A stretch of 64,000 bases of DNA, from contig NZ_CP135164.1 of NCBI RefSeq assembly GCF_001940225.2, positions 1,240,001 to 1,304,000 on the forward strand. The letters are read 5' to 3'. Positions 2,310 to 36,728 of the stretch are shown piece by piece. This DNA is from Roseburia sp. 499. Its GTDB lineage: Bacteria; Bacillota; Clostridia; Lachnospirales; Lachnospiraceae. Position 1 is the first letter of the stretch. Each line of letters begins with the position of its first letter. The notes under the pieces were generated by a model that ran no database searches, was not told the DNA's origin, and saw nothing but the letters and a program-made list of their open reading frames with translations. The position numbers were made by a program, and so were the translations under genes.

Positions 2310-3401
2310 CTATTTTCGCATGAAACATTCCAAAAGTTTATCATTCATTTCCGGGCTCATAAAGCAGAAACGAACGTACTTATTATCCAAAAACGGAAAA
2401 GTTGAACAGTCACGAATCATCATTTTTTCACGAATTGCACGGTCAAACAAAAGTTCTGAGGTAAGTGTATCATCCATAAGACGTACCAGCATAAAGTTTC
2501 CACTTGGCTTGTATACCTTGAAACGGGAGTCTTTGGAAAGGGCATTATACATTCTGGCACGCTCCGTAGAAATGAGTTGCCGTGTTTTTTGAATATAATC
2601 GGTATCTTTAAACATAATTTCACCGGCAATGACTGCAAGAGAGTTAATTGTCCATGGATTTTTTCTGGTATTGATTGCCTTAATTAAGTCTCGGTTTCCG
2701 GTGATAGCATAGCCAAGACGCAGTCCGGGGGCAGCAAAGAACTTAGAAGTTCCTCTTAGAATAACAATATTATTGTAAAAGGCAGTCAGTGGAGTGGAAT
2801 CAATCTCATCATAATTATCAGCAAATTCCACATAGGTTTCATCTACCATGACAAAAATATCATTTTGTTTACAAATATCCAGAATGGTACGCATATCTTT
2901 CTGGTTGACAGCAGTAGATGTTGGATTATTCGGATTGCAGATGACCAAAAGGTCAATGCTTTCATTCAACTGAGCAGTGAAGTGGGCAACATCTAAGCAG
3001 AAGCCTTGTTCTTCTTTTAGTGGATAGTACAGGCAGGTACCGCCGCCTAAGGAAATTTCACGTTCATATTCAGAATAGGTAGGTCCAAGGATAAGAGCCT
3101 TTTGGGGATGTTCAATTTGAATGAATAGTGAAATCAGTTCTGTAGAACCGTTTCCCATGATAATATTTTCATAGTCTGTATTTACATAATCAGCAATGCA
3201 TTTCCGAAGAGATGTGTATTCTCTGTCCGGATAGGTAGTAATTGCATCAATGTGCTTTGAAAGGGTGCTTCTGAGCATAGGGGAAACGCCCAAAGGATTT
3301 ACATTGGCACTGAAGCTTGTAATTTCTTCCTTTTTAATACCATAAATTTGTTCTATTTTTTCCAGGTCGCTACCATGGAAATGGTCTTTGTGTTGTAACA
3401 T
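2310..3401 (-). CDS. PLP-dependent aminotransferase, HisC/CobD-like
   Basis: A 363-residue fold-type I PLP enzyme. Visible landmarks are NPNNPT (around 157-162), VDETYVEF (186-193, with the PLP-contacting Asp and Tyr), the Schiff-base lysine in GTSKFFAAPGLRLGY (Lys220) and the substrate-binding Arg228. The N-terminus HGSDLEKIEQIYG...FSANVNPLG resembles L-threonine-O-3-phosphate decarboxylase (CobD) as much as histidinol-phosphate aminotransferase. No cob or his genes are nearby, so the substrate stays open. It has its own promoter, divergent from the large gene at 3507. Confidence 0.83.
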   Translation of the reverse strand: MLQHKDHFHGSDLEKIEQIYGIKKEEITSFSANVNPLGVSPMLRSTLSKHIDAITTYPDREYTSLRKCIADYVNTDYENIIMGNGSTELISLFIQIEHPQKALILGPTYSEYEREISLGGGTCLYYPLKEEQGFCLDVAHFTAQLNESIDLLVICNPNNPTSTAVNQKDMRTILDICKQNDIFVMVDETYVEFADNYDEIDSTPLTAFYNNIVILRGTSKFFAAPGLRLGYAITGNRDLIKAINTRKNPWTINSLAVIAGEIMFKDTDYIQKTRQLISTERARMYNALSKDSRFKVYKPSGNFMLVRLMDDTLTSELLFDRAIREKMMIRDCSTFPFLDNKYVRFCFMSPEMNDKLLECFMRK

Positions 3402-3423
3402 TTTTTTGCCTCCAAATTTTTCA

Positions 3424-3452
3424 TTTACACCATTGGCGGAATCGTTTATAAT
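3424..3452 (+). promoter_or_regulatory. Promoter of the four-gene cassette
   Basis: TTTACA at 3424-3429 and a perfect TATAAT at 3447-3452 are separated by exactly 17 bases. Transcription would start near 3459, which puts the TTG at 3474 almost at the 5' end without a ribosome site and favours the TTG at 3507. Confidence 0.72.
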
Positions 3453-3460
3453 TTATGTAT

Positions 3461-3488
3461 ATTATAACGGATATTGACGAAAAATCAA
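3461..3488 (-). promoter_or_regulatory. Promoter of the aminotransferase gene
   Basis: On the minus strand TTGATT (3488-3483) and TATAAT (3466-3461) are 16 bases apart, followed by a GGAGG ribosome site before the ATG at 3401. It interleaves with the divergent plus-strand promoter, so the two may compete. Confidence 0.6.
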
Positions 3489-3506
3489 CTAGAAGCAGGT
3501 GACGAT

Positions 3507-6500
3507 TTGCGTAAGAAGATACAGGAACTGGCAGCAGGAAAATGTGATAAGAAGTGTTCAATTATTCAATTTTCAGAGAAAGAATTGAAAGTAAAGGTGT
3601 TGGAGGGGCAGAAGTATAGTGGAAAGTTTACCATAGAAAGTACGAATGAGATACCTATGCGTGGTATCGTCTATTCTTCCAATCCACGGATGGAATGTCA
3701 GAATTCCCAATTTCAGGGAAATGAAGTAACCATAAATTATGAATTTCATAGTGAAGGTATGGTAGAAGGTGATTCTTCCAAGGGTGACTTTTATGTTATT
3801 TGTAATGAGGGAGAATATGACCTTCCTTTTGTAGTGACGGTTTCGAAGGGATATCCGGAGAGTTCTCAGGGAAGTATTGACAGTATATTCAGCTTTGCCA
3901 ATCTTGCACAGAGTTCTTATGAAGAGGCAGTAGAAGTATTTGGAAAACCGGAATTTATCAATATTTTTAAAGAACGGGAGCAGGAAGAACGATTAGGGTA
4001 TCTGGGACTTATGAAAAAGCCATGTACTATGGCGCAGGTGGAAGAGTTTTTGATTTTAGCTAAGAAAAAGAAAAGAATCAGTTTTTCTATAGAAGAAAGT
4101 CAGACAGAAATTTATGGAATCGGGCAAGATGAAAAGCAACATGTTACGTTGAAAAAGGATAACTGGGGATATGTTGCCATTGAGGTAAGCAGTGATGCTG
4201 CGTTTGTGGCACCGGTAAAAAGAGTGATTACCACCGAGGATTTTGTAGGAAATCGGGCGATTGTGGAATATGTGATTTTAGAAGAAAAATTACATGCAGG
4301 GAAAAATTTTGCAAGAATTACTTTTGAGAATCAGTTTCAGAAGGATAGTGTGGAACTTTGTATTACCAGAGAAGAAAAAGACATGGAGAAGAATCGAACT
4401 TTTCTGGAAATTCAAAAGCGAAGAGAAGCCTTAGTGAAGTATTATATTGCATTTCGTCTGCGTCAGATGGTAACCGGTGTATGGACAAAAAAGACTTGTG
4501 AGGAACTGGACTTTTTAATGAATCTGGAGCAGGACAATGGTTGGTGTTCCTTGTACAAGGCGCAGGCACTTCTGATAAATCGTCAGAAACAGGAAGCGCA
4601 GTGGATATTGGATGCTTTCCGTAGAGAAAATAGAGAAAAAGATACACCATTGTATGCGTATTATTTGTATTTGTGTACACTGGCAGAACCGGAACCGGCA
4701 TATGTAAATCAGTTGACTGAGCAGATAGAAGAAATCTATCATCGGAATCAGGAGAATCCTATTCTATTGTGGATTCTATTGTTTGTGGATGAAGAGTTTA
4801 ATTATAGTAATAATCGGAAATTAGAGGCAATTGCAAGGCAGATAGAGAGGGGATGTGACAGTCCGGTTCTCTATATAGAAGCATATTCCCTATTGAGTCA
4901 GGAGCCTTATTTGATTCATAAGGGAGACAAATTGGAACGAAAAATTCTAGGTTGGGCAGTGAAGCATAATGTTCTAACAATAAAGATGGCAGAGCAGATA
5001 AGACAGTTGATTCCACAGTTGACTTCCTTTCATCCGGTGTGGTATCGGATTATGGAATCATGTTATGAGAAGTATCCATCTAACGAACTATTGCAAGAAA
5101 TCTGTGGATATTGTATCAGGGCCGGACGTTATGGAGAGCAGTTCTTCAAATGGTATGATGCCGGAGTCAGAGAAGAGTTGCGGATTGGTGGTTTGTATGA
5201 GGCGTGGATGTTGTCAGCAAATCAGGGACAATTACAGAAGATTCCGAAACTGGTGACAATGTATTTTCAATACCATAGCAATCTGGCATATCAGCAACAG
5301 GCAATGCTTTATAGTGCGGTAATAAGCAATAAGCAGAGTATGAAGCAGGTGTTCCAGAATTATCAGAAGTCCATGGAAGAGTTTGCGCTAGAACAGCTTA
5401 GGGCTGGTAGAATTGACCAGAATTTGGCAGTGATTTACAGAGAAATGTTGACCCCGGCAGTTTTGAATGAGGAATCAGCAGAATGGTTATCTAAGGTGAT
5501 TTTTTCCTACCAGATTACTTGTCAGGAGGAAAAAGCGGTAAGGGTCATAGTACGGCAATATCAGTTGCAACAGGAACAGGCAGTTCCCCTGGTAAACCAT
5601 AGTGCTTATGTCAATATCTATGGAATGGTATATAGCATATTATTAGAGGATGCAAAGGGAAATCGTTTCCTTCCAAAAGAAGATATTGTGATAAAGCCTT
5701 TAATGAATGCAGCGCTTTTTTTAAAAAAGGGAATGGAATATGCCAGTGATAATCTGAGTTTTATGTTGAGTTACTTTGATTGTAAAAAGATATGGCAAAC
5801 CTATGAAGAGGAAGATTTACCTTATTTGAAAAAAATGATGGAGTCTCCAAAACTTAGTAGGGAATATCAGGAGGAAATTCGTCTTCAGATGATTGCATAT
5901 CATTATGACAATTATACGGGAGATACGCTAGATGAATTTTTGTTGAATTTGTCTTTTGAACGGCTAGAACAGAATATCCGCGGAAAATTGATGGAACTTT
6001 TAGTGGCAAGGGGACACTTCCACAAAGCGTATGAACTGGTATTGGCATATGGAAGTGAAAGTTTGTCGGCGTCGAAGTTGTTGTCTGTTATTTGTAACAA
6101 AATAGATGAGATAGAACAGGAACCGGATGATTTTCTGATTGGAATGTGCAGAACTGTATTTTTGCGTGGAAAATATAATGATATGGTATTGGAATATATG
6201 TGTCGTTACTTCTATGGCAATCTTAAGGAGATGACAGGTCTTTGGAAGGCGGCAAGGGAATTTGAACTGGAGTGCCGGGATTTGGAGGAACGTTGCCTTA
6301 CCCAATTTCTTTATACGGGTAGTTATGCTATGTGTATGGAAGAGATTTTTGAAAGTTACGCAAAAAAAGGTGGAAGAAAGATTATTATTATTGCGTATCT
6401 TTCTCAGATATCTCATAAGTATCTGACCAGTGATATAGAAGTCTCTAATTATGTTTTCCAAAAGATTTCGGAATTGTTGGACGAAGAGGAAGAATTAAAT

Positions 6501-7046
6501 GAACCTTGTCGTCTTGGATTTTTGAAATGGTGTTCAGAGACAGAAAAGATATCCGAAAAGCAGAAGGAGCAAGCGGAAGAGATTCTAAAAATTGCAGTCA
6601 GTGAAGGAAAATATTTTCCGTTTTATAAGAGTCTTCCCCAGGAATTTGCAGAAAAGTATATGTATTATGACAAAACGTTTTTGGAATACCGCACAGTACC
6701 GGATACCAGAGTGGTAATAAATTTTGGGAAAAGGGGTTCAGAAGATTATGTAGAATGTGAAATGACAAGGATGTATAGTGGAATCTTTGTAAAGCCATTT
6801 TTGCTGTTTTTTGGAGAGGAAGTACCATATTATATTAAGGAAGAGAAAAATGGCGAGATGGTGGTAACAGAAAGCAGTCATGTTCAGAGTAGTGAGATAT
6901 GTCCTGTTAATGAAGAGAGTAAGTATCAGCTCCTAAATGGTATGATCATGAGTTTACAGATGAGGGATGGAGCAACCATAGAGAAGTTATTGGGGCAGTA
7001 TGAAATGGTGGAACAATTAACACGCGAGAGATTTACCATAATATAA
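3507..7046 (+). CDS. Giant solenoid protein of unknown function (DUF5717-like)
   Basis: A cytoplasmic protein of about 1,179 residues with no signal peptide or membrane segment. The first 110 residues look like a beta-sandwich (EGQKYSGKFTIEST, GDFYVICNEGEYDLPF), a second beta-rich part spans roughly 180-290, a long alpha-helical repeat region runs from about 300 to 1030, and a beta-rich C-terminal domain closes it. I recall this layout as Pfam DUF5717 of Lachnospiraceae. The TTG at 3507, preceded by AGGTGA, gives the family-like start 'LRKKIQELAAGK'; an earlier TTG at 3474 lacks a ribosome site. It is the first gene of a cassette with the next three. Helical repeats suggest a scaffold; function unknown. 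Confidence 0.78.
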   Translation: MRKKIQELAAGKCDKKCSIIQFSEKELKVKVLEGQKYSGKFTIESTNEIPMRGIVYSSNPRMECQNSQFQGNEVTINYEFHSEGMVEGDSSKGDFYVICNEGEYDLPFVVTVSKGYPESSQGSIDSIFSFANLAQSSYEEAVEVFGKPEFINIFKEREQEERLGYLGLMKKPCTMAQVEEFLILAKKKKRISFSIEESQTEIYGIGQDEKQHVTLKKDNWGYVAIEVSSDAAFVAPVKRVITTEDFVGNRAIVEYVILEEKLHAGKNFARITFENQFQKDSVELCITREEKDMEKNRTFLEIQKRREALVKYYIAFRLRQMVTGVWTKKTCEELDFLMNLEQDNGWCSLYKAQALLINRQKQEAQWILDAFRRENREKDTPLYAYYLYLCTLAEPEPAYVNQLTEQIEEIYHRNQENPILLWILLFVDEEFNYSNNRKLEAIARQIERGCDSPVLYIEAYSLLSQEPYLIHKGDKLERKILGWAVKHNVLTIKMAEQIRQLIPQLTSFHPVWYRIMESCYEKYPSNELLQEICGYCIRAGRYGEQFFKWYDAGVREELRIGGLYEAWMLSANQGQLQKIPKLVTMYFQYHSNLAYQQQAMLYSAVISNKQSMKQVFQNYQKSMEEFALEQLRAGRIDQNLAVIYREMLTPAVLNEESAEWLSKVIFSYQITCQEEKAVRVIVRQYQLQQEQAVPLVNHSAYVNIYGMVYSILLEDAKGNRFLPKEDIVIKPLMNAALFLKKGMEYASDNLSFMLSYFDCKKIWQTYEEEDLPYLKKMMESPKLSREYQEEIRLQMIAYHYDNYTGDTLDEFLLNLSFERLEQNIRGKLMELLVARGHFHKAYELVLAYGSESLSASKLLSVICNKIDEIEQEPDDFLIGMCRTVFLRGKYNDMVLEYMCRYFYGNLKEMTGLWKAAREFELECRDLEERCLTQFLYTGSYAMCMEEIFESYAKKGGRKIIIIAYLSQISHKYLTSDIEVSNYVFQKISELLDEEEELNEPCRLGFLKWCSETEKISEKQKEQAEEILKIAVSEGKYFPFYKSLPQEFAEKYMYYDKTFLEYRTVPDTRVVINFGKRGSEDYVECEMTRMYSGIFVKPFLLFFGEEVPYYIKEEKNGEMVVTESSHVQSSEICPVNEESKYQLLNGMIMSLQMRDGATIEKLLGQYEMVEQLTRERFTII

Positions 7047-7062
7047 AGGGTGGTGAGAGTGG

Positions 7063-8280
7063 ATGAGACCGAAAGAAACAGAATGGTATATCGGAATTGA
7101 ATTAGGAAATAAGTGGACTATGGTAAGTTCCTATACGGTAGGCATGAAGGAGCCTGAGACAAAGGGATTGGTTGCCGGAAGTCAGAGTTATCGAATTCCC
7201 ACTGCCCTTTGTAAGAAACGTGGAATTAGTCAGTGGTATCTGTCAGAACAAACGGAAGGAATCTACATAGAGCATTTATTGGAAAAGGTAGTAAAAGGGG
7301 AAATAGTAGAGGCAGAAGAGTCCTATGAGGCAAAAGAACTTTTTTTGGTATTTTTACGAAAAGTAATACGGATGGCATTACCGGGAAAAGGAATAGTTGC
7401 AGTAACCAGATGTGTGTTTTCGGTAGAACAGCTTACCACAGAGTTAGCTGAATTGTTGCTTGGATGTGCCCGTGAACTGGGATGGAAGCCAGAGCAGATT
7501 CTGATTCAGGATAACAAAGAGAGCTTTTATGCTTATGCCGTTAGCCAGAAACAGGAATTGTGGATGTATGATGTTGCATTGTTTTCCAGTGAAGATGGAG
7601 CAGTCACTTATTGGAATATGAGTCATGACAAGAAGACGATACCTCAGATTTGCAAAGTCACAGAGCAATATTTGGGTGAACTTCCGAAAGATAGCGATGA
7701 ACGTGATTTGGAATTTGCCAAAATGTTGGAAAAAACATTGAATGGAAGGATTGTCTCGGCGGTATACCTTATAGGAGAGGGATTTGAGGGAGGATGGATG
7801 CGAACCTCATTGCAGGTGGTGTGTCGGGGGCACAGAGCATTTCAGGGAAAGAATCTCTATACCAAAGGTGCTTGTTATGCAGGGGTATTAGATGCTCATG
7901 CTGAGAAAAGAGAGACCATTTATTTTTGCGAATATAAGACAGAGAAGAATGTGTTTTTGAAGGCGTCTTATCAAGAACGGGAATATATGTATCCACTGGT
8001 AGAGGCGGGAAGAAACAGACATCAGATTCAAAAAAAGTGTTCTGTGTTATTGGAAGGGGAACCATCATTGGATGTTTGGGTGCAATCTCCGGGAAAGAAA
8101 GAGGCTGTTATTGAGAGCATGGAACTTCAGGGATTAAATTCTGTAGAAGGAAGAAGATGCCGATTGGAACTTCAGATAGAAGGAAAACTAGAGAATGGAT
8201 TGCAACTTAAGGTAAGAGATATCGGATTAGGTGAACTTTTACCTGGAAGCAATCAAGAATGGGAATACGAGATAGGATAA
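7063..8280 (+). CDS. Hsp70/actin-fold protein of unknown function (DUF5716-like)
   Basis: A 405-residue protein with a degenerate Hsp70-like plan. Phosphate-1 motif IGIELGNKWTMVS lies at residues 10-22 (Glu replaces the usual Asp of DLG). A weak phosphate-2 region is DVALFSSEDGAVTYW, an adenosine-type motif is VYLIGEGFEGGW, and KGACYAGV matches the GAAIQAGV helix of Hsp70. The last 110 residues are beta-rich, where Hsp70 has its substrate domain. It may bind nucleotide without efficient hydrolysis. It starts 16 bases after the giant gene with a GGTGG ribosome site and is followed 10 bases later by the TPR gene, so the set is one operon. I recall the family as DUF5716; function unknown. Confidence 0.75.
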   Translation: MRPKETEWYIGIELGNKWTMVSSYTVGMKEPETKGLVAGSQSYRIPTALCKKRGISQWYLSEQTEGIYIEHLLEKVVKGEIVEAEESYEAKELFLVFLRKVIRMALPGKGIVAVTRCVFSVEQLTTELAELLLGCARELGWKPEQILIQDNKESFYAYAVSQKQELWMYDVALFSSEDGAVTYWNMSHDKKTIPQICKVTEQYLGELPKDSDERDLEFAKMLEKTLNGRIVSAVYLIGEGFEGGWMRTSLQVVCRGHRAFQGKNLYTKGACYAGVLDAHAEKRETIYFCEYKTEKNVFLKASYQEREYMYPLVEAGRNRHQIQKKCSVLLEGEPSLDVWVQSPGKKEAVIESMELQGLNSVEGRRCRLELQIEGKLENGLQLKVRDIGLGELLPGSNQEWEYEIG

Positions 8281-8290
8281 GGAGAAGACC

Positions 8291-9028
8291 ATGAATAAAG
8301 TATGGATATGTCAGAGTAAAATAGCGGGTATTCCCCTTTATCTTCCGGAGCAGCGGGTAAACTTATATTCTTTGGAGGAATTGTGTTATTATTTATGCCA
8401 GGATGCTGAAGTAATAGAAGAACAGTTTTTTGATGAAAAATTAGTGCTGTGGTTGGAACGGGAACTGGAATTAACAGAATTGTGTGAGCGACTACGGGAA
8501 GGAATTGCACAAGGAAAGCGTGGTTTCTGGTGTATGGAAGTGATTCTTTGGGAAAGTGGTTATTATACCAAGGAAGAAATAGAAAAAGTAATGGAAACAG
8601 TAAGCAGGATTGTCCAGGCAAAGCCGGAGGAAAGAAAGAAGTTACGGGCAGATCGAATGCTTCAGGAAGGAAGGTATAAAGTAGCACTTCAGGAATATCA
8701 GCAGTTGGTTCTAAAGGATAATCCGGACAAGTTGTTAGCAAGTCACATATGGCATAATATGGGAACTGCATATGCAAGACAGTTTTTGTTTGAACGGGCA
8801 GCAGAATGTTATGAGAAGGCTTATATTATGGGGCGCATGGAAGAGAGCAGACAGCAGTATCTTGTTGCACGTGCTTGCGCAGAGAGACAGAATCTGGAAG
8901 AGGGTGAAAATATTACAGAAGGGAAAGACTTGCAGAAGGTGAAAGAGCAGGAGGGAATATTACGTTATGAAGAAGAGGTATATCGGAAATTAGAGAAACT
9001 TGTAGAAGAATATATGAGAAGTGAGTGA
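8291..9028 (+). CDS. TPR-repeat protein of the cassette
   Basis: A 245-residue soluble protein. The N-terminal third (residues 1-110, starting WICQSKIAGIPLYLPEQRVN and YSLEELCYYL) is a domain I do not recognise. Residues about 120-200 form two to three tetratricopeptide-type helical pairs (ADRMLQEGRYKVALQEY; IWHNMGTAYARQFLFERAAE). The C-terminus is a charged helix. TPR proteins commonly dock onto chaperones, which fits its place directly after an Hsp70-like gene, though interaction is inference. It overlaps the start of the next gene by 8 bases if the GTG start of that gene is used. Confidence 0.8.
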   Translation: MNKVWICQSKIAGIPLYLPEQRVNLYSLEELCYYLCQDAEVIEEQFFDEKLVLWLERELELTELCERLREGIAQGKRGFWCMEVILWESGYYTKEEIEKVMETVSRIVQAKPEERKKLRADRMLQEGRYKVALQEYQQLVLKDNPDKLLASHIWHNMGTAYARQFLFERAAECYEKAYIMGRMEESRQQYLVARACAERQNLEEGENITEGKDLQKVKEQEGILRYEEEVYRKLEKLVEEYMRSE

Positions 9029-10184
9029 AAAGATGGGATTATTTAAGAGAAAGAAAAAGGTAGAACCAGTCGAAGAAGTAGTGGAAAATAATGGATTGGT
9101 AAAAGAGGAAAAGAAAGAAACGCGCCATGTAGTTATGGAATATTGTGAACAGATTATGGAGGCTGCAAAAGACTTAGAGGAGAAAAAAAGGGAATATCGG
9201 GTGGTGACTGATTATCTGACTGATATCCAGATTATAGAGGAGCTTCCGGAACCGGATATGAAAAAAATTCAGGAGTCAGCACAGCAGGTTCAGAATCTGA
9301 GCGAGACAAGAGATATTTATCGAAAGAAGGTAAAGACTATTTCAGATGCACAGTTTGCTCAGATGGAGCAGTTGGAAGATGAGGTGCCGGATGCAGTTCG
9401 TAGGTTAAAAACCAATGAGGCATATCAAGCTGCGGTAAAACGAGACATGCAATATCTGGAAGGGGAAAAGAATGAGTGGCATATTCATCAGGAAACGATG
9501 GAACGTGAATATCATATATTGCGACGTGTACTGTATGGAATTGCAGCAGTATTTGTAGTGGCGATAATTGCTATTCTTGTGTTGTCACAGGTGATTCGCT
9601 TAGACATTCAGACTCCGTTTTTGATTGCAGTACTGATTGCGGGCGGTGCAGGTGGTGGCGTGTTCTGGAGAATGCAGAATGATGAACGGGAAGTTAAGAA
9701 GGCCCAGGCAAGTATAAACCGTGCAATTACATTGTTGAATGGTGTGAAGTTGAAATATGTGAATATTACTAATGCAGTAGACTATGCTTGCGAAAAGTAT
9801 CATGTACACAATTCTAATGAGTTGAATTATATTTGGGAGCAGTATTTAGAAGCCATAAAAGAGCGAGAAAAGTATCAGCGTACGAATGAAGACTTAGAGT
9901 ATTTCAGTAGTAGATTAATTCGTGACCTTCATGCATATCACTTGTATGATGCAAAAATCTGGGTTCATCAGACACAGGCTTTGCTGGACAAGAAGGAAAT
10001 GGTAGAAGTAAAGCATGAACTTTTGGTAAGAAGACAGAAGTTGAGAGACAGAATTGACATGCAGATAGACAGTATTCAAGGTGCTAAGGGAGAAATAGAA
10101 AAGCTCATAAAAGACTACGGACAGCATGAAGCAGAGATACGGGAGGTATTAAGTTCTCTGGATAAGATATGCGGAGTAGCATAG
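9021..10184 (+). CDS. Membrane-anchored coiled-coil protein of the cassette
   Basis: A 387-residue protein with a very basic N-terminus (GLFKRKKK), a charged coiled coil (about 30-165), two adjacent transmembrane helices (170-192 and 198-217, the second containing GGAGGG) and a second long coiled coil (220-385). Both coils should face the cytoplasm, making a hairpin anchor. A GTG at 9021 overlaps the previous gene; an ATG at 9033 is an alternative start. As the only membrane protein of the four it could tether the others to the membrane. Family not recognised. Confidence 0.78.
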   Translation: MSEKMGLFKRKKKVEPVEEVVENNGLVKEEKKETRHVVMEYCEQIMEAAKDLEEKKREYRVVTDYLTDIQIIEELPEPDMKKIQESAQQVQNLSETRDIYRKKVKTISDAQFAQMEQLEDEVPDAVRRLKTNEAYQAAVKRDMQYLEGEKNEWHIHQETMEREYHILRRVLYGIAAVFVVAIIAILVLSQVIRLDIQTPFLIAVLIAGGAGGGVFWRMQNDEREVKKAQASINRAITLLNGVKLKYVNITNAVDYACEKYHVHNSNELNYIWEQYLEAIKEREKYQRTNEDLEYFSSRLIRDLHAYHLYDAKIWVHQTQALLDKKEMVEVKHELLVRRQKLRDRIDMQIDSIQGAKGEIEKLIKDYGQHEAEIREVLSSLDKICGVA

Positions 10185-10195
10185 AAAATAAATAT

Positions 10196-10256
10196 AAAGT
10201 CCTTGTAGGAATGGAAGAACCTTTGGGTTCGGAAAGTTCTACAGGGACTTTTTTTT
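10196..10256 (+). terminator. Terminator of the four-gene cassette
   Basis: Arms AAAGTCCTTGTAGGA (10196-10210) and TCTACAGGGACTTT (10238-10251) pair with one G-T and one end mismatch and run into eight T residues. An inner GAACC/GGTTC hairpin sits in the loop. It isolates the cassette from the phosphate-storage genes downstream. Confidence 0.85.
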
Positions 10257-10272
10257 GAAAGTTTTTAGAAGA

Positions 10273-10315
10273 CCATCACATAACCATCACTTAAAAACTT
10301 TACAATAATTTTACA
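10273..10315 (+). promoter_or_regulatory. Pho-box-like tandem direct repeats
   Basis: Two pairs of direct repeats, each with an 11-bp period: CCATCAC at 10273 and 10284, and TTTACA at 10299 and 10310. Seven bases plus a four-base AT spacer is the geometry of PhoB boxes, and TTTACA-N5-TTTACA resembles PhoP boxes of Firmicutes. The site lies 25 bases before the start of a polyphosphate polymerase, a plausible Pho target. Which regulator binds is inference. Confidence 0.6.
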
Positions 10316-10339
10316 TTCAAGGAGAAAGGAGTTGGAAAA

Positions 10340-11047
10340 GTGATACAGAAAGTATTTAATCGTTATGAAAAGAAGTATCTACTGACAGAACAGGAATATT
10401 GTGCCATAAGAAAAAGGCTGGAAGAATATATGGAAGAAGACCAGTATGGATTACATACCATTCGCAATATATATTATGATACTGCAGATGATGAGTTGAT
10501 ACGTACTTCTCTGGAAAAACCAAAATATAAGGAAAAATTCCGGGTACGCTGTTATGGAGAAACGGATGCAGAGAGTAATTATTTTCTGGAAATCAAAAAG
10601 AAATACAAAGGCGTTGTTAATAAGCGAAGGATTGTTATGAAGCCGGAAGAAGCGAAGGCATATCTGGAGCAAGGACAAAAGCCGAAAGAACAGTCACAGA
10701 TTTTTAAGGAAGTAGATTATGTGTGGAATCGTTATCAGTTGATGCCGAAAGTATATCTTGCCTATGACAGGATTGCATTATTTGGAAAAGAAGACCCGGA
10801 GTTCTGGGTAACCTTTGACCAGAATATTCGAAGTCGTGACTTTGCATTGAATTTAGAAAATGATGCAGAGACCACAAAACTGTTGGAGGATGGATATTAT
10901 CTCATGGAGGTAAAGATATCGAATGCCATGCCGTTGTGGTTCGTGAAAATTTTAACGGAACTTAGAATTCACAGTACATCTTTTTCCAAGTATGGAAATG
11001 TATATCGTAAAAGTTTAGAAGAAAATGGAGGACGAAAAGTATGTTAG
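10340..11047 (+). CDS. VTC-domain polyphosphate polymerase
   Basis: A 235-residue protein of the VTC/CYTH tunnel-fold family, the catalytic part of the eukaryotic VTC complex that makes polyphosphate from ATP. Conserved basic and acidic strands are visible: RYEKKYLL (8-15), NIYYDTAD, KEKFRVRCYG, FLEIKKKYKGVVNKRR, KVYLAYDR and LMEVKISNAMPLWF. The start is a GTG with AAGGAG upstream. The stop overlaps the start of the DUF4956 gene by 7 bases. No signal peptide or membrane segment is present, so the enzyme is cytoplasmic and probably docks on the neighbouring membrane protein. The reaction in bacteria is assumed from the family. Confidence 0.88.
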   Translation: MIQKVFNRYEKKYLLTEQEYCAIRKRLEEYMEEDQYGLHTIRNIYYDTADDELIRTSLEKPKYKEKFRVRCYGETDAESNYFLEIKKKYKGVVNKRRIVMKPEEAKAYLEQGQKPKEQSQIFKEVDYVWNRYQLMPKVYLAYDRIALFGKEDPEFWVTFDQNIRSRDFALNLENDAETTKLLEDGYYLMEVKISNAMPLWFVKILTELRIHSTSFSKYGNVYRKSLEENGGRKVC

Positions 11048-11685
11048 AAGCAATATGGAACGCATTTTTTTATGCAGTAATCGCAGGAGTATTGGGAGTG
11101 GTTATCTCCCTGACTTATATGAAGACGGGAAAGGTATCAAAAAATTTTGCAAGAACATTGATTATTTTACCGATTCTGGTATGTGTAGTTATTACTATGG
11201 TAAACGGTAATCTGGGAACCTCTGTGGCAATTGTAGGAGCATTTAGTTTGATTCGTTTCCGCTCCCTACAGGGAAGCTCGAGGGACATTGCATTTATCTT
11301 TTTTGCTATGACAGCAGGACTTACCTGCAGTATGGGATATCTTCTTTTTGCAGTAGCAGTAACTGTTTTGGTATGTGTGATTTTGTTTGTATTGCAGCTT
11401 GTTCATTATGGAGAGAAAAAAACAGAGGAAAAGGATTTACGGATTACCATACCGGAAAATCTGGATTATACCAATATATTTAATGAGATTTTTGAACACT
11501 ATACCAAGGGATATAAGTTACTCCAGGTAAAAACCACCAATATGGGAAGCCTATATGAATTACGGTATCATACCACATTAAAGGATGAGGCGCAGGAGAA
11601 GGAATTTCTGGATGCTTTGCGGGTTAGAAATGGAAATCTTACTGTGATTTTGGGAAGAACAGATATGGAAGAGGAGGAATTATAA
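11041..11685 (+). CDS. DUF4956 membrane protein
   Basis: A 214-residue protein with four hydrophobic segments in its first 125 residues and a soluble C-terminal part of about 85 residues. The stretch VGAFSLIRFRSLQGSSRDIA (about 72-91) is the family hallmark between membrane helices. DUF4956 proteins nearly always accompany VTC-domain genes and are thought to be the membrane partner. Its coupling to the polymerase (7-base overlap) and to the lipoprotein gene that follows (shared base) supports a single complex. The precise role is unknown. Confidence 0.87.
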   Translation: MLEAIWNAFFYAVIAGVLGVVISLTYMKTGKVSKNFARTLIILPILVCVVITMVNGNLGTSVAIVGAFSLIRFRSLQGSSRDIAFIFFAMTAGLTCSMGYLLFAVAVTVLVCVILFVLQLVHYGEKKTEEKDLRITIPENLDYTNIFNEIFEHYTKGYKLLQVKTTNMGSLYELRYHTTLKDEAQEKEFLDALRVRNGNLTVILGRTDMEEEEL

Positions 11686-13280
11686 TGAAAAGAAAATATT
11701 TAAAACGGCTGGGGATATGTTTTCTTAGTGCCGTTTTAGTAATGGGAATGACTGGATGTGGTAAGAACAAAGAAAGTAATACGGAGTCTGGAACAGAAGA
11801 AGAACAGCAGAATACAGAAATGCAGCAGGGCAGAGGAATGGAAAACCAATTAACGGAAGAGGAATTGGCAACTTATGAAGAAGCAGATGGAATAGAAATA
11901 GAGGAATTAGAGCTAAAAACAGATTGGGAAGAAAAGGCGGAGATTTCTCTGGGAGATACTGTTACAGTGAATGGAACAGGAGCAGAAGTATCTGATGATA
12001 ATACAGTGCTTATTACAGAGGGCGGTTCTTATTCGATTTCCGGTGAGTTATCTGACGGAATGATTCAGGTAGATACAGAGGATGCTGTAAAGCTGGTGTT
12101 GGCAGGGACTAACATTACAAATGCAGATGGTTCTGCAATTTATGTAAAAGCGGCAGAAGTATGTTATATAGAAACAAAAGTGGGAACAGAAAATGTGCTT
12201 TCTGATGGAGAAAGCTATGTAGATACAGAAGAGATGAAAGCAACCGTGTTTTCAAATGACAGACTGGTTATGTTGGGCGAAGGAATACTTACGGTAAATG
12301 GAAATTATAAGCATGCTGTCAGCAGTGATGATGAAGTATATGTAGTAAGTGGAAATTATGAGCTTACTGCAGTGAAGGATGGAATTCATGCAAGTAACTG
12401 GATTAATGTGGAAAATGGAAGCATTAATATGGAAGTCACAGATGATGGAATGCAAAGTGAAGGTCCGATTGCTGTGAATGGCGGAGCAATTACTATTGCA
12501 GCAGATGGAAAAGGAATTACTGCCTATGGAGACCTTACGGTAAATGAAGGAACTATTAGCATCAGTAAGTGTGAGGAAGGATTAGAAAGCAAAAATGACT
12601 TGACCATTAATGGAGGAACTACAGAAATAAACGGAAGTGATGATGGTCTGAATGCCAGAAGTTCTATTACGATTAATGGCGGAACGTTGTATGCAGAAAT
12701 AACAGCAGGAGATGCGTTGGATTCCAATGGAACGATGATTATTAATGGCGGATTGGTATTGGCATTTGGAGCACAGGAACCAGAGGGCGGTATTGATTGT
12801 GATATGAATGAAATTCAAATCAATGGCGGAACAGTAATCGGTACCGGTGGAACCAATAGTGCACCTTCGGAAACAGAAAGTAGTCAGATATCGGTACTTT
12901 TAGGAAGTGCATCCAAGGGTGATGTGATAGGAATTCTGGATAATGAAGGAAACACCGTTTTTGCCTTTGAGGCACCGGGGGACTATAGTAATATGTTGTT
13001 GTCTACAGGAACGATTTCTTCTGATACAGATTATGTAGTTTATACCGGAGGAACTGTGAATGGGGAACGTTATCATGGATATTATCAAGACGGTGTTTAC
13101 AATGGTGGAACAGAATCTGTTTCTTTTACCACAGACAGTATGGTAGTAAGTGCCGGTGGAACATCCAATAGTATGGGCGGCGGTCCTCAAGGTGGTATGC
13201 AAAAAGGCGGTATGCCACAGGGTGGAAAAATGCCGCAGAACGGTGAAAAACCAGAAAATGGAGAAACAGTAGAAAATTAA
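11685..13280 (+). CDS. Cthe_2159-like beta-helix lipoprotein
   Basis: A 531-residue exported lipoprotein: a basic, hydrophobic signal (1-24) ends in MTGC with Cys25. After a Glu-rich linker, residues about 85-400 carry repeated strands with 'INGG' or 'VNGG' turns (for example TINGGTTEINGSDDG, SITINGGTLYAEI), typical of a right-handed parallel beta-helix. This matches the polysaccharide-binding Cthe_2159 family. The tail (490-531) is Gly/Met/Gln-rich and disordered. It is the third gene of the VTC-DUF4956 operon. A link between polyphosphate synthesis and cell-surface polysaccharide or metal binding is suggested by gene order only. Confidence 0.85.
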   Translation: MKRKYLKRLGICFLSAVLVMGMTGCGKNKESNTESGTEEEQQNTEMQQGRGMENQLTEEELATYEEADGIEIEELELKTDWEEKAEISLGDTVTVNGTGAEVSDDNTVLITEGGSYSISGELSDGMIQVDTEDAVKLVLAGTNITNADGSAIYVKAAEVCYIETKVGTENVLSDGESYVDTEEMKATVFSNDRLVMLGEGILTVNGNYKHAVSSDDEVYVVSGNYELTAVKDGIHASNWINVENGSINMEVTDDGMQSEGPIAVNGGAITIAADGKGITAYGDLTVNEGTISISKCEEGLESKNDLTINGGTTEINGSDDGLNARSSITINGGTLYAEITAGDALDSNGTMIINGGLVLAFGAQEPEGGIDCDMNEIQINGGTVIGTGGTNSAPSETESSQISVLLGSASKGDVIGILDNEGNTVFAFEAPGDYSNMLLSTGTISSDTDYVVYTGGTVNGERYHGYYQDGVYNGGTESVSFTTDSMVVSAGGTSNSMGGGPQGGMQKGGMPQGGKMPQNGEKPENGETVEN

Positions 13281-35799: not shown

Positions 35800-35842
35800 T
35801 TAGCACTCGCCTCTTGACAGTGCTAATAACAAGTGTTATAGT
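35800..35842 (+). promoter_or_regulatory. CIRCE element overlapping the hsp20 promoter
   Basis: TTAGCACTC (35800-35808), nine bases, CAGTGCTAA (35818-35826): the HrcA operator CIRCE with one mismatch. A TTGACA -35 (35814-35819) and TATAGT -10 (35837-35842) 17 bases apart overlap its right half. HrcA should repress the two hsp20 genes at normal temperature. Confidence 0.93.
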
Positions 35843-35875
35843 ACAACTAGAACAAAGGAAAAGGAGGAAGGACCT

Positions 35876-36226
35876 ATGATGGCACCAGGAAAACATTATC
35901 CAATGAAAAGTGATATAAGGGAAAGGGATGATAAATATGTGTTGGAAATTGACCTTCCCGGATTTCGAAAAGAAGACATAAAGGCATATATCCAGAATGG
36001 ATACCTGATTGTATCTGCATTCCGAGAAAGGGAAAAGAACAAAGAAAATCACAAGTGGATTCGTCAGGAACGATATTTTGGTAACTATCAGAGAAGCTTT
36101 TATATTGGCACAGGAATTTCACAGGAGGATTTGAAGGCATCTTATCGATTCGGTGTTTTGAGAATTCAGATTCCAAAGATACCAAAGCATTTGGAAGATA
36201 ATGCAGGAAACATTCAGATAGCATAA
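35876..36226 (+). CDS. Small heat-shock protein, Hsp20 family
   Basis: A 116-residue protein that is almost entirely alpha-crystallin domain: YVLEIDLPGFRKEDIKAYIQ (22-41), NGYLIVSA, RSFYIGTGISQEDLKASY and the closing FGVLRIQIPK. The N-terminal arm is very short (about 15 residues), and the C-terminal I-X-I motif is only suggested by IPKIPK and IQIA. As an ATP-independent holdase it binds unfolding proteins. It is first in a two-gene CIRCE operon; the next Hsp20 is longer, so mixed oligomers are possible. Confidence 0.92.
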   Translation: MMAPGKHYPMKSDIRERDDKYVLEIDLPGFRKEDIKAYIQNGYLIVSAFREREKNKENHKWIRQERYFGNYQRSFYIGTGISQEDLKASYRFGVLRIQIPKIPKHLEDNAGNIQIA

Positions 36227-36278
36227 AATAGTAACAATTTAGAAATAGAATTTTATAGAGTTTAAGGAGGAATGACGT

Positions 36279-36728
36279 ATGTTAGCACCTAGTATTTTGG
36301 GAAGAAGTTTTGTAGATGATTTTTTCAATGATTCATTTGATGATATGTTTCAAGAGATGTTTCGTACACCGTATGAACATGCCAGTGCAGGCGGTCTGAT
36401 GTGTACTGATGTGCAGGATATGGGTGACCATTACCAGATGGAAATGGAACTGCCGGGGTATCAGAAGGAAGATTTAAAGGCAAATCTGAAAAATGGATAT
36501 CTGACTATTTCTGCGGAACACAAAGAAGAAAATGATCAGAAGGATGAAAATGGTAAGTTTGTCCGCAGGGAGCGTTACATGGGACATTGCCAGAGAAGTT
36601 TCTATGTCGGTGAAAATATTACTCAGAATGATATTCATGCCGGATTCGAGGATGGTGTTTTGAAACTGACGATTCCGAAGAAAGAAGCAAATGCAGTCGA
36701 AGAACAGAAATATATCGCTATTGAATAA
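36279..36728 (+). CDS. Small heat-shock protein, Hsp20 family (longer paralog)
   Basis: A 149-residue protein. An N-terminal arm with FVDDFFNDSFDDMFQEMFRT (11-30) resembles Clostridium Hsp18. The alpha-crystallin domain covers about 40-140 (YQMEMELPGYQKEDLKANLK; ERYMGHCQRSFYVGENIT; GVLKLTIPKKE). It follows the first hsp20 by 52 bases with AAGGAGG upstream and shares its CIRCE promoter. A terminator lies about 100 bases downstream. Confidence 0.95.
   Translation: MLAPSILGRSFVDDFFNDSFDDMFQEMFRTPYEHASAGGLMCTDVQDMGDHYQMEMELPGYQKEDLKANLKNGYLTISAEHKEENDQKDENGKFVRRERYMGHCQRSFYVGENITQNDIHAGFEDGVLKLTIPKKEANAVEEQKYIAIE

Follow-up and report, generated by a model that had tools for sequence, protein, structure and literature searches.

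A probable pseudo-Hsp70 in a conserved Lachnospiraceae operon derived from a larger Hsp70 locus

Within a stretch of 64,000 nucleotides from Roseburia sp. 499 (here the window; C1:1240001-1304000, within a single-contig genome of 3.38 Mb), four co-directional genes, which we call A, B, C and D, form an operon whose second product is best read as a pseudo-Hsp70. Structure modelling and alignment show that B has kept the two-domain frame of Hsp70, whereas subdomain IIB, the alpha lid and most nucleotide-site residues are gone. Sister families of the order Lachnospirales carry related genes in a larger operon together with three further Hsp70s and a GrpE fusion. It is an evenly balanced proposal, in our judgement, that the four genes encode the core, working without ATP, of a membrane-associated complex of Hsp70 type that is specific to the order and serves as a chaperone or in assembly.

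The operon and its degenerate Hsp70

The four open reading frames (ORFs) lie between a promoter-like site and a terminator, at the position where a first-pass annotation of this DNA had placed a four-gene cassette. The features, all on the plus strand, are the following.

3424..3452, +: promoter-like site TTTACA-17-TATAAT, 11/12 consensus matches (putative, by consensus only)
3507..7046, +: gene A, DUF5717 protein, 1179 residues; PF18984 and PF18983 over cut-off
7063..8280, +: gene B, DUF5716 protein (DUF5716_C, PF18980), 405 residues, probable pseudo-Hsp70; Hsp70 fold over residues 7-405 of the AlphaFold2 (AF2) model
7081..7902, +: degenerate Hsp70 nucleotide-binding domain (NBD) of B, about residues 7-280, by alignment to Hsp70 NBDs; most nucleotide-site residues lost
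7639..7683, +: position of subdomain IIB in B, about 14 residues, by alignment census; coordinates approximate
7930..8277, +: domain of B resembling the beta part of the substrate-binding domain (SBD-beta), about residues 290-405, no alpha lid; alignment to residue 405
8291..9028, +: gene C, 245 residues, marginal TPR match (TPR_2 E 1.2e-5, below cut-off)
9033..10184, +: gene D, 383 residues, membrane protein with two transmembrane segments (hydropathy) and probable coiled coils (weak keratin coiled-coil matches)
10196..10251, +: intrinsic terminator hairpin, then U-run; fold -28.5 kcal/mol, z -6.2

B scores 289 bits against PF18980, far above the cut-off, and its AF2 model is confident (predicted local distance difference test, pLDDT, 91.9; predicted template modelling score, pTM, 0.90). 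The model matches DnaK across the ATPase and peptide-binding domains, with an ASKHA NBD followed by an SBD-beta, and the best 50 of 992 aligned chains in a fold search all belong to the Hsp70 family or to Hsp70 complexes, over NBD and SBD-beta. Subdomain IIB is absent: a median of 14 residues (11-26) stands in its place in Lachnospiraceae B, compared with 81 in the organism's own DnaK. The alpha lid is missing as well, with a median of 15 residues past the end of SBD-beta in Lachnospiraceae B against 151 in DnaK. Among 33 Lachnospiraceae B proteins the equivalents of T11, T12, K70, E171, T199 and the second adenosine glycine are almost always lost, and the window's own B has E at the D8 equivalent and S at the D194 equivalent; these nucleotide-site, IIB and lid censuses exclude sequences below a length limit and duplicates, defined by identity across residues 51-250. 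Judged by its residues, B probably no longer cycles ATP.

The first-pass annotation had called B Hsp70/actin-like. The ASKHA fold it expected is present in the model, and the Hsp70 part of the description stands, with both NBD and SBD-beta recognisable; actin-like is not the best reading. A cytoskeletal machine, with D tethering actin-like filaments made of B, could draw on the ASKHA fold and on D as a probable coiled-coil membrane partner, but the best 50 fold matches are Hsp70-type over both domains, the phosphate loops and IIB are mostly lost, and a tree puts B beside H3, an Hsp70 of the sister families introduced below. On these grounds the filament reading is very improbable and was set aside as a leading view. 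MreB, ParM and FtsA do not appear among the best 50 of the 992 fold matches to B, an absence from that list only.

The earlier assignment of A and B to DUF5717 and DUF5716 proved correct, A scoring 986 bits with PF18984 and 339 bits with PF18983, both far above the curated cut-off. Translation of A may start at TTG 3507, giving 1179 residues (AGGTGA ahead, by eye), or at TTG 3474, giving 1190; close homologues are 1179-1191 residues long. Profile self-comparison of A yielded no significant sequence repeats, and a search for a PDB relative found none (best E 0.3). Both families carry no assigned function in Pfam. A literature search, covering few subscription journals, found no description of the operon; it turned up no mention of DUF5717, and the word DUF5716 in a single cancer study.

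The description of C as a TPR protein is marginal for the window's copy (25.5 bits for a cut-off of 27) and clear for the longer C of relatives (about 385 residues), which is strongly TPR. For D, hydropathy predicts a pair of membrane segments, in agreement with the two membrane helices claimed earlier, while the two long coiled coils are represented only by weak matches to keratin (best E 0.0013); no Pfam family was found for D over cut-off. Separately, a 950-residue frame at another locus (L044:5261-8113) combines a D-like part (195 bits) with a glutamyl/glutaminyl-tRNA synthetase domain (residues 464-787), which may reflect a fusion or an assembly error.

The tight packing reported for the cassette holds for A-B and B-C, with gaps of 16 and 10 bases, and depends on the start codon for C and D. 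Starting at GTG 9021, D would share 8 bases with C; starting at ATG 9033, it would begin after a gap of 4 bases, and its close homologues have the 383 residues counted from ATG 9033. The terminator hairpin is strong, and none of 200 shuffles folds equally well; it was identified by folding and is missing from the list of a simpler terminator scan. As for the promoter, TTTACA-17-TATAAT is the sole 11-of-12 match within 2500-11500, but the total of promoter-like matches there, 23 as compared with 25.2 in shuffles, shows no excess.

Conservation and derivation by loss

We surveyed 196 genomes of the order, 35 of them Lachnospiraceae (the window's included), counting A by PF18983 and B by PF18980 at E 0.001. 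A occurs in 94 and B in 92 genomes (both in 91, A only in 3, B only in 1, neither in 101), and the two are seldom apart (4 of the 95 genomes having either; 4/196 overall). All 35 Lachnospiraceae genomes hold both as open frames, with a single B each and a family-consistent tree; named homologues include many Lachnospiraceae. Among 34 Lachnospiraceae loci besides the window, 27 have A-B-C-D, six have A-B-C without D, and L160 is cut by a contig end; the 27 include L053, whose B was hidden by the ORF filter and found by profile search. A and B are adjacent in 34/34 loci (33 by ORF call, L053 by profile search), and in 32 of 33 pairs the distance from A to B ranges from -14 to 31 bases. The first-pass idea of a system supposed that the genes are conserved together, and they are. 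Outside the family, PF18983 gave one match, below cut-off, in a phylum sample of 199 genomes, and in a class sample of 293 genomes PF18984 and PF18980 gave one sub-cut-off match each; D gave three weak partial matches. These outside-order figures come from samples, and PF18984 is insensitive to the divergent A of other families.

In other Lachnospirales families the DUF5716 model often matches two adjacent genes, and the locus there is a larger operon of fixed order, A-H1-GrpE fusion-B-H3-HV-C, with D in some loci. H1 (about 558 residues), H3 (about 545) and HV (about 690-735) are three lidless Hsp70s with intact nucleotide sites, HV carrying a VWA domain at the place of the lid. The GrpE fusion (about 280-650 residues) carries its GrpE domain at the C-terminal end, B measures about 410-545 residues, and A is often split into about 390 + 900. 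The complete order was found in 27 of 44 loci; removing duplicate contigs (L065, L174, L182, L179) and an unrelated locus (L049) leaves 23 of 39. Seven of these end in D. The remaining loci are partial, some ending with the contig and some with split genes. Among the matches listed in a scan with H1, hosts include Defluviitaleaceae bacteria, an uncultured Eubacteriaceae metagenome-assembled genome (MAG) and Clostridiales UBA4039; L057-L074 are orthologues with at least 54% identity (56-96%), and the matches that follow, beginning with L075, reach no more than 33%, are generic Hsp70s and were not counted. NCBI taxonomy places Defluviitaleaceae and Lachnospiraceae both in Lachnospirales. As a side observation, four loci have H1-GrpE fusion-B without A, H3 or HV alongside (L061, L062, L073 and L178), the first three being Defluviitaleaceae MAG records.

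The direction of change follows from the trees. A quick tree, made with the IIB columns removed, unites B with H3 to the exclusion of H1, HV and DnaK (SH-aLRT 100), and a careful tree rooted on HV again groups B with H3. H3 is a single clade in the quick tree, and in the careful tree B arises among H3 branches; under either tree H3 is no younger than B, so that the Lachnospiraceae, having B but no H3, would have lost H3. In the careful tree Lachnospiraceae B is nested inside larger-operon B (99/96; with L037 100/99), and monophyly of larger-operon B is rejected (approximately unbiased test, AU, p 0.0004). The long-branched B of L071, L048 and L042 were excluded from the careful tree; the quick tree includes them and has Lachnospiraceae B nested there too. 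Several B branches are long, and joins of long branches can mislead. From this nesting the four-gene operon is therefore shown, at the level of sequence comparison, to be a derived state, reached by what appears as loss of H1, the GrpE fusion, H3 and HV.

Relocation of the ATP-driven genes in place of their loss was considered and rejected. The Roseburia genome has one full Hsp70 (DnaK, 809 bits), one GrpE and one partial Hsp70 match (51 bits, in a 358-residue frame). No Hsp70-VWA gene was seen in 150 Lachnospiraceae genomes, a search not made likewise for H1, H3 and the GrpE fusion: the best match, at 322 bits, does not exceed DnaK-like scores, and among the matches listed all end by position 561 of 691. 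True HV orthologues score >1000 bits with a comparable model; 9 of the 150 genomes have no match at all at cut-off. It is also hardly credible that the four genes are decaying, functionless remains of the larger operon. Such a relic would fit the fast evolution of B, seen in its long branches, and the loss of four genes, but A and B are maintained as open frames in every Lachnospiraceae genome sampled, always adjacent, and parted in only four of 95 genomes.

A proposed motorless chaperone core and its alternatives

The best functional analogue of B is Ssz1 of the yeast ribosome-associated complex (RAC). PMC7083937 describes it as a non-canonical Hsp70 that keeps SBD-beta, has no alpha lid, and binds but does not hydrolyse ATP, its SBD-beta holding a motif of the partner Zuo1. 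B too is lidless and matches 5mb9_B and 4gni_A in fold; its catalytic residues are absent. Unlike Ssz1, it also lacks subdomain IIB and most phosphate-loop residues, and where Ssz1 has the J protein Zuo1, no J protein was detected among the operon proteins scanned, a partner encoded elsewhere not having been sought. Because identity is about 13%, we make no claim of orthology. The larger operon in turn recalls DnaK/GrpE, with intact nucleotide sites in H1, H3 and HV and a GrpE-domain protein; it differs in that H1 and H3 are lidless, HV has VWA in the lid's place, the GrpE domain is preceded by a long N-terminal fusion part, and the operon adds the giant DUF5717 protein and a fourth Hsp70, which is degenerate. 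A survey of DnaK duplication (PMC11019930) has no word starting Lachnospir, Clostridi or Defluviit in its main text.

B could use its lidless SBD-beta to dock on a peptide of a partner or client with no need of an ATP cycle; the domain would probably be a docking surface, or a peptide clamp of low affinity, as it is for Ssz1 in RAC. A may be the large scaffold and C a TPR-type adaptor of the complex that the proteins would form; D would be the membrane anchor, and tethering would fall to it alone. In the sister families the three lidless Hsp70s and the GrpE fusion would drive client release, and in Lachnospiraceae the general DnaK, GrpE and perhaps HtpG might supply any ATP-driven step. The history would then be that Lachnospirales evolved a multi-Hsp70 machine and that Lachnospiraceae 'de-energised' it, losing the ATP-driven parts and IIB of B and keeping the scaffold with its pseudo-chaperone as a conserved core, an account we believe about as much as we doubt. 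The first-pass annotation had envisaged a membrane-tethered chaperone-like or cytoskeletal machine. Ancestry and fold give good support to its chaperone half, B being an Hsp70 relative and the related larger operon having three Hsp70s and a GrpE fusion; its cytoskeletal half is not supported.

If correct, this history would give a natural example of a motor chaperone that became a scaffold. DUF5717 and DUF5716, found in 35/35 Lachnospiraceae genomes without a known function, are now placed in an Hsp70-derived system, and a route is given by which an operon with several ATP-driven Hsp70s evolved into one without motors. Because B exists both in the company of IIB, a GrpE partner and active Hsp70 sisters and in their absence, the two states can be compared to learn what an Hsp70 does without ATP, and the intact relatives make this biochemical question testable.

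Similar parts occur in systems of biological conflict. Kaur et al. 2020 (PMC7159879) describe HSP70 and GrpE with DnaJ- or TPR-fused proteins in actinobacterial and firmicute GAP1-N2 GTPase systems, of which a subset has a second HSP70 without a peptide-binding domain. HSP70, GrpE, a second HSP70 and TPR proteins share a neighbourhood there, and the larger operon has HSP70, GrpE, TPR and VWA parts too, so that an immunity-like system, with these parts as a triggered assembly, can be imagined. It is nevertheless improbable. No GTPase, GAP1, DnaJ or effector domain was found among the operon proteins scanned (Pfam, E 0.01; Pfam's coverage of GAP1 is uncertain), A-D, H1, the GrpE fusion and C have no PADLOC match, and the locus is common to whole families of one order, with A and B in all 35 Lachnospiraceae genomes, one B each and the family-consistent tree. 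The PADLOC candidate model PDC-M61B does match part of the Hsp70 region of H3 (E 8.6e-9) and HV (E 2.3e-6). CnuD of the CoCoNuT Type IV restriction systems is another degenerate Hsp70 (NBD/SBD; PMC11090510), with predicted ATP hydrolysis very inefficient at best; B resembles it as a degenerate Hsp70, but CnuD systems carry McrB GTPases and RNases, and none of these domains was found here.

Several observations weigh against a motorless chaperone core. Some nucleotide contacts are mostly kept in Lachnospiraceae B (D8 equivalent 29/33, D194 equivalent 23/33, first adenosine-loop glycine 33/33), and because of them B may still bind nucleotide weakly. Loss of IIB is not strictly coupled to loss of the GrpE fusion, since a locus of another family (L048) has A-B without H1, GrpE fusion, H3 or HV and its B keeps an IIB-like stretch. 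No J-domain protein (DnaJ, E 0.01) was detected among the operon proteins scanned; partners encoded elsewhere were not sought. No CIRCE element lies directly before A in the window or the scanned loci, in a scan allowing up to 4 mismatches to the consensus, and heat-shock control of the cassette by CIRCE was rejected.

D is present in 114/196 order genomes, occurs without A or B in 32/196 and is undetected in 6/35 Lachnospiraceae genomes, so that it may be an independent neighbour of the machine. It lies far from the cassette in several relatives, for example G228, G235 and G390, and, if small ORFs are ignored, is the neighbour of valS (valyl-tRNA synthetase) in 14 of the 20 D loci L191-L210, including genomes without A and B. 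Given the 32 genomes and the valS linkage, D belongs to the machine with less certainty than A, B and C do. These data could also be turned around, with D as the ancestral functional unit and A, B and C as a dedicated scaffold for the assembly or positioning of D, or of an envelope complex around it, B serving as a nucleotide-poor ASKHA adaptor. PilM and FtsA are ASKHA adaptors for membrane partners. Consistent with such an envelope factor, D is commoner than A or B, most of B's nucleotide site is lost, and A-B-C-D are linked in 27/34 Lachnospiraceae loci, with valS detected beside only one of these 27; yet six Lachnospiraceae genomes keep A-B-C without detectable D, D is distant in several relatives, and B resembles a full-length Hsp70 with SBD-beta. 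We regard the D-centred arrangement as unlikely, if worth keeping in mind, and retain the Hsp70-derived core as the working proposal.

Neighbouring genes

The following genes flank the cassette; the aminotransferase marks the locus and lies outside the proposed system.

2310..3401, -: divergent class I/II aminotransferase (Pfam PF00155), flank marker in the window
L147:931-2979, L161:12367-14424, L168:1250-3565, same strand as A: htpG (Hsp90), gaps to A of 127, 86 and 108 bases

The divergent aminotransferase upstream of A is found in the window, in 11/34 Lachnospiraceae loci and in 10/44 loci of the other kind. A downstream valS was seen in three Lachnospiraceae loci (L051 and L153, of one genus, and L053) and in larger-operon loci L036, L037, L071, L175, L183, L186 and L208. 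The cassette sits in a neighbourhood of aminotransferase, D and valS that seems to be an inheritance of the order.

In 3/34 Lachnospiraceae loci htpG (PF00183) precedes A in the same orientation, 86-127 bases away, a hint of a link to the chaperone network; in the window's genome it lies elsewhere. A perfect CIRCE occurs in L168 at 1166, before htpG. L034, L050 and L203 have 4-mismatch matches elsewhere. Other exact or near-exact copies were found at the organism's own dnaK locus (L056) and at window position 35800. There, within 35800-36728, the CIRCE-like element with one mismatch lies just ahead of two small Hsp20-like genes (by eye). Upstream of the cassette, 316-2227 on the minus strand encodes a membrane protein, an ABC transporter ATPase and a GntR-type regulator (names by eye), and the next operon downstream, 10340-13280, encodes a VTC domain protein, a DUF4956 membrane protein and a Cthe_2159-type carbohydrate-binding protein.

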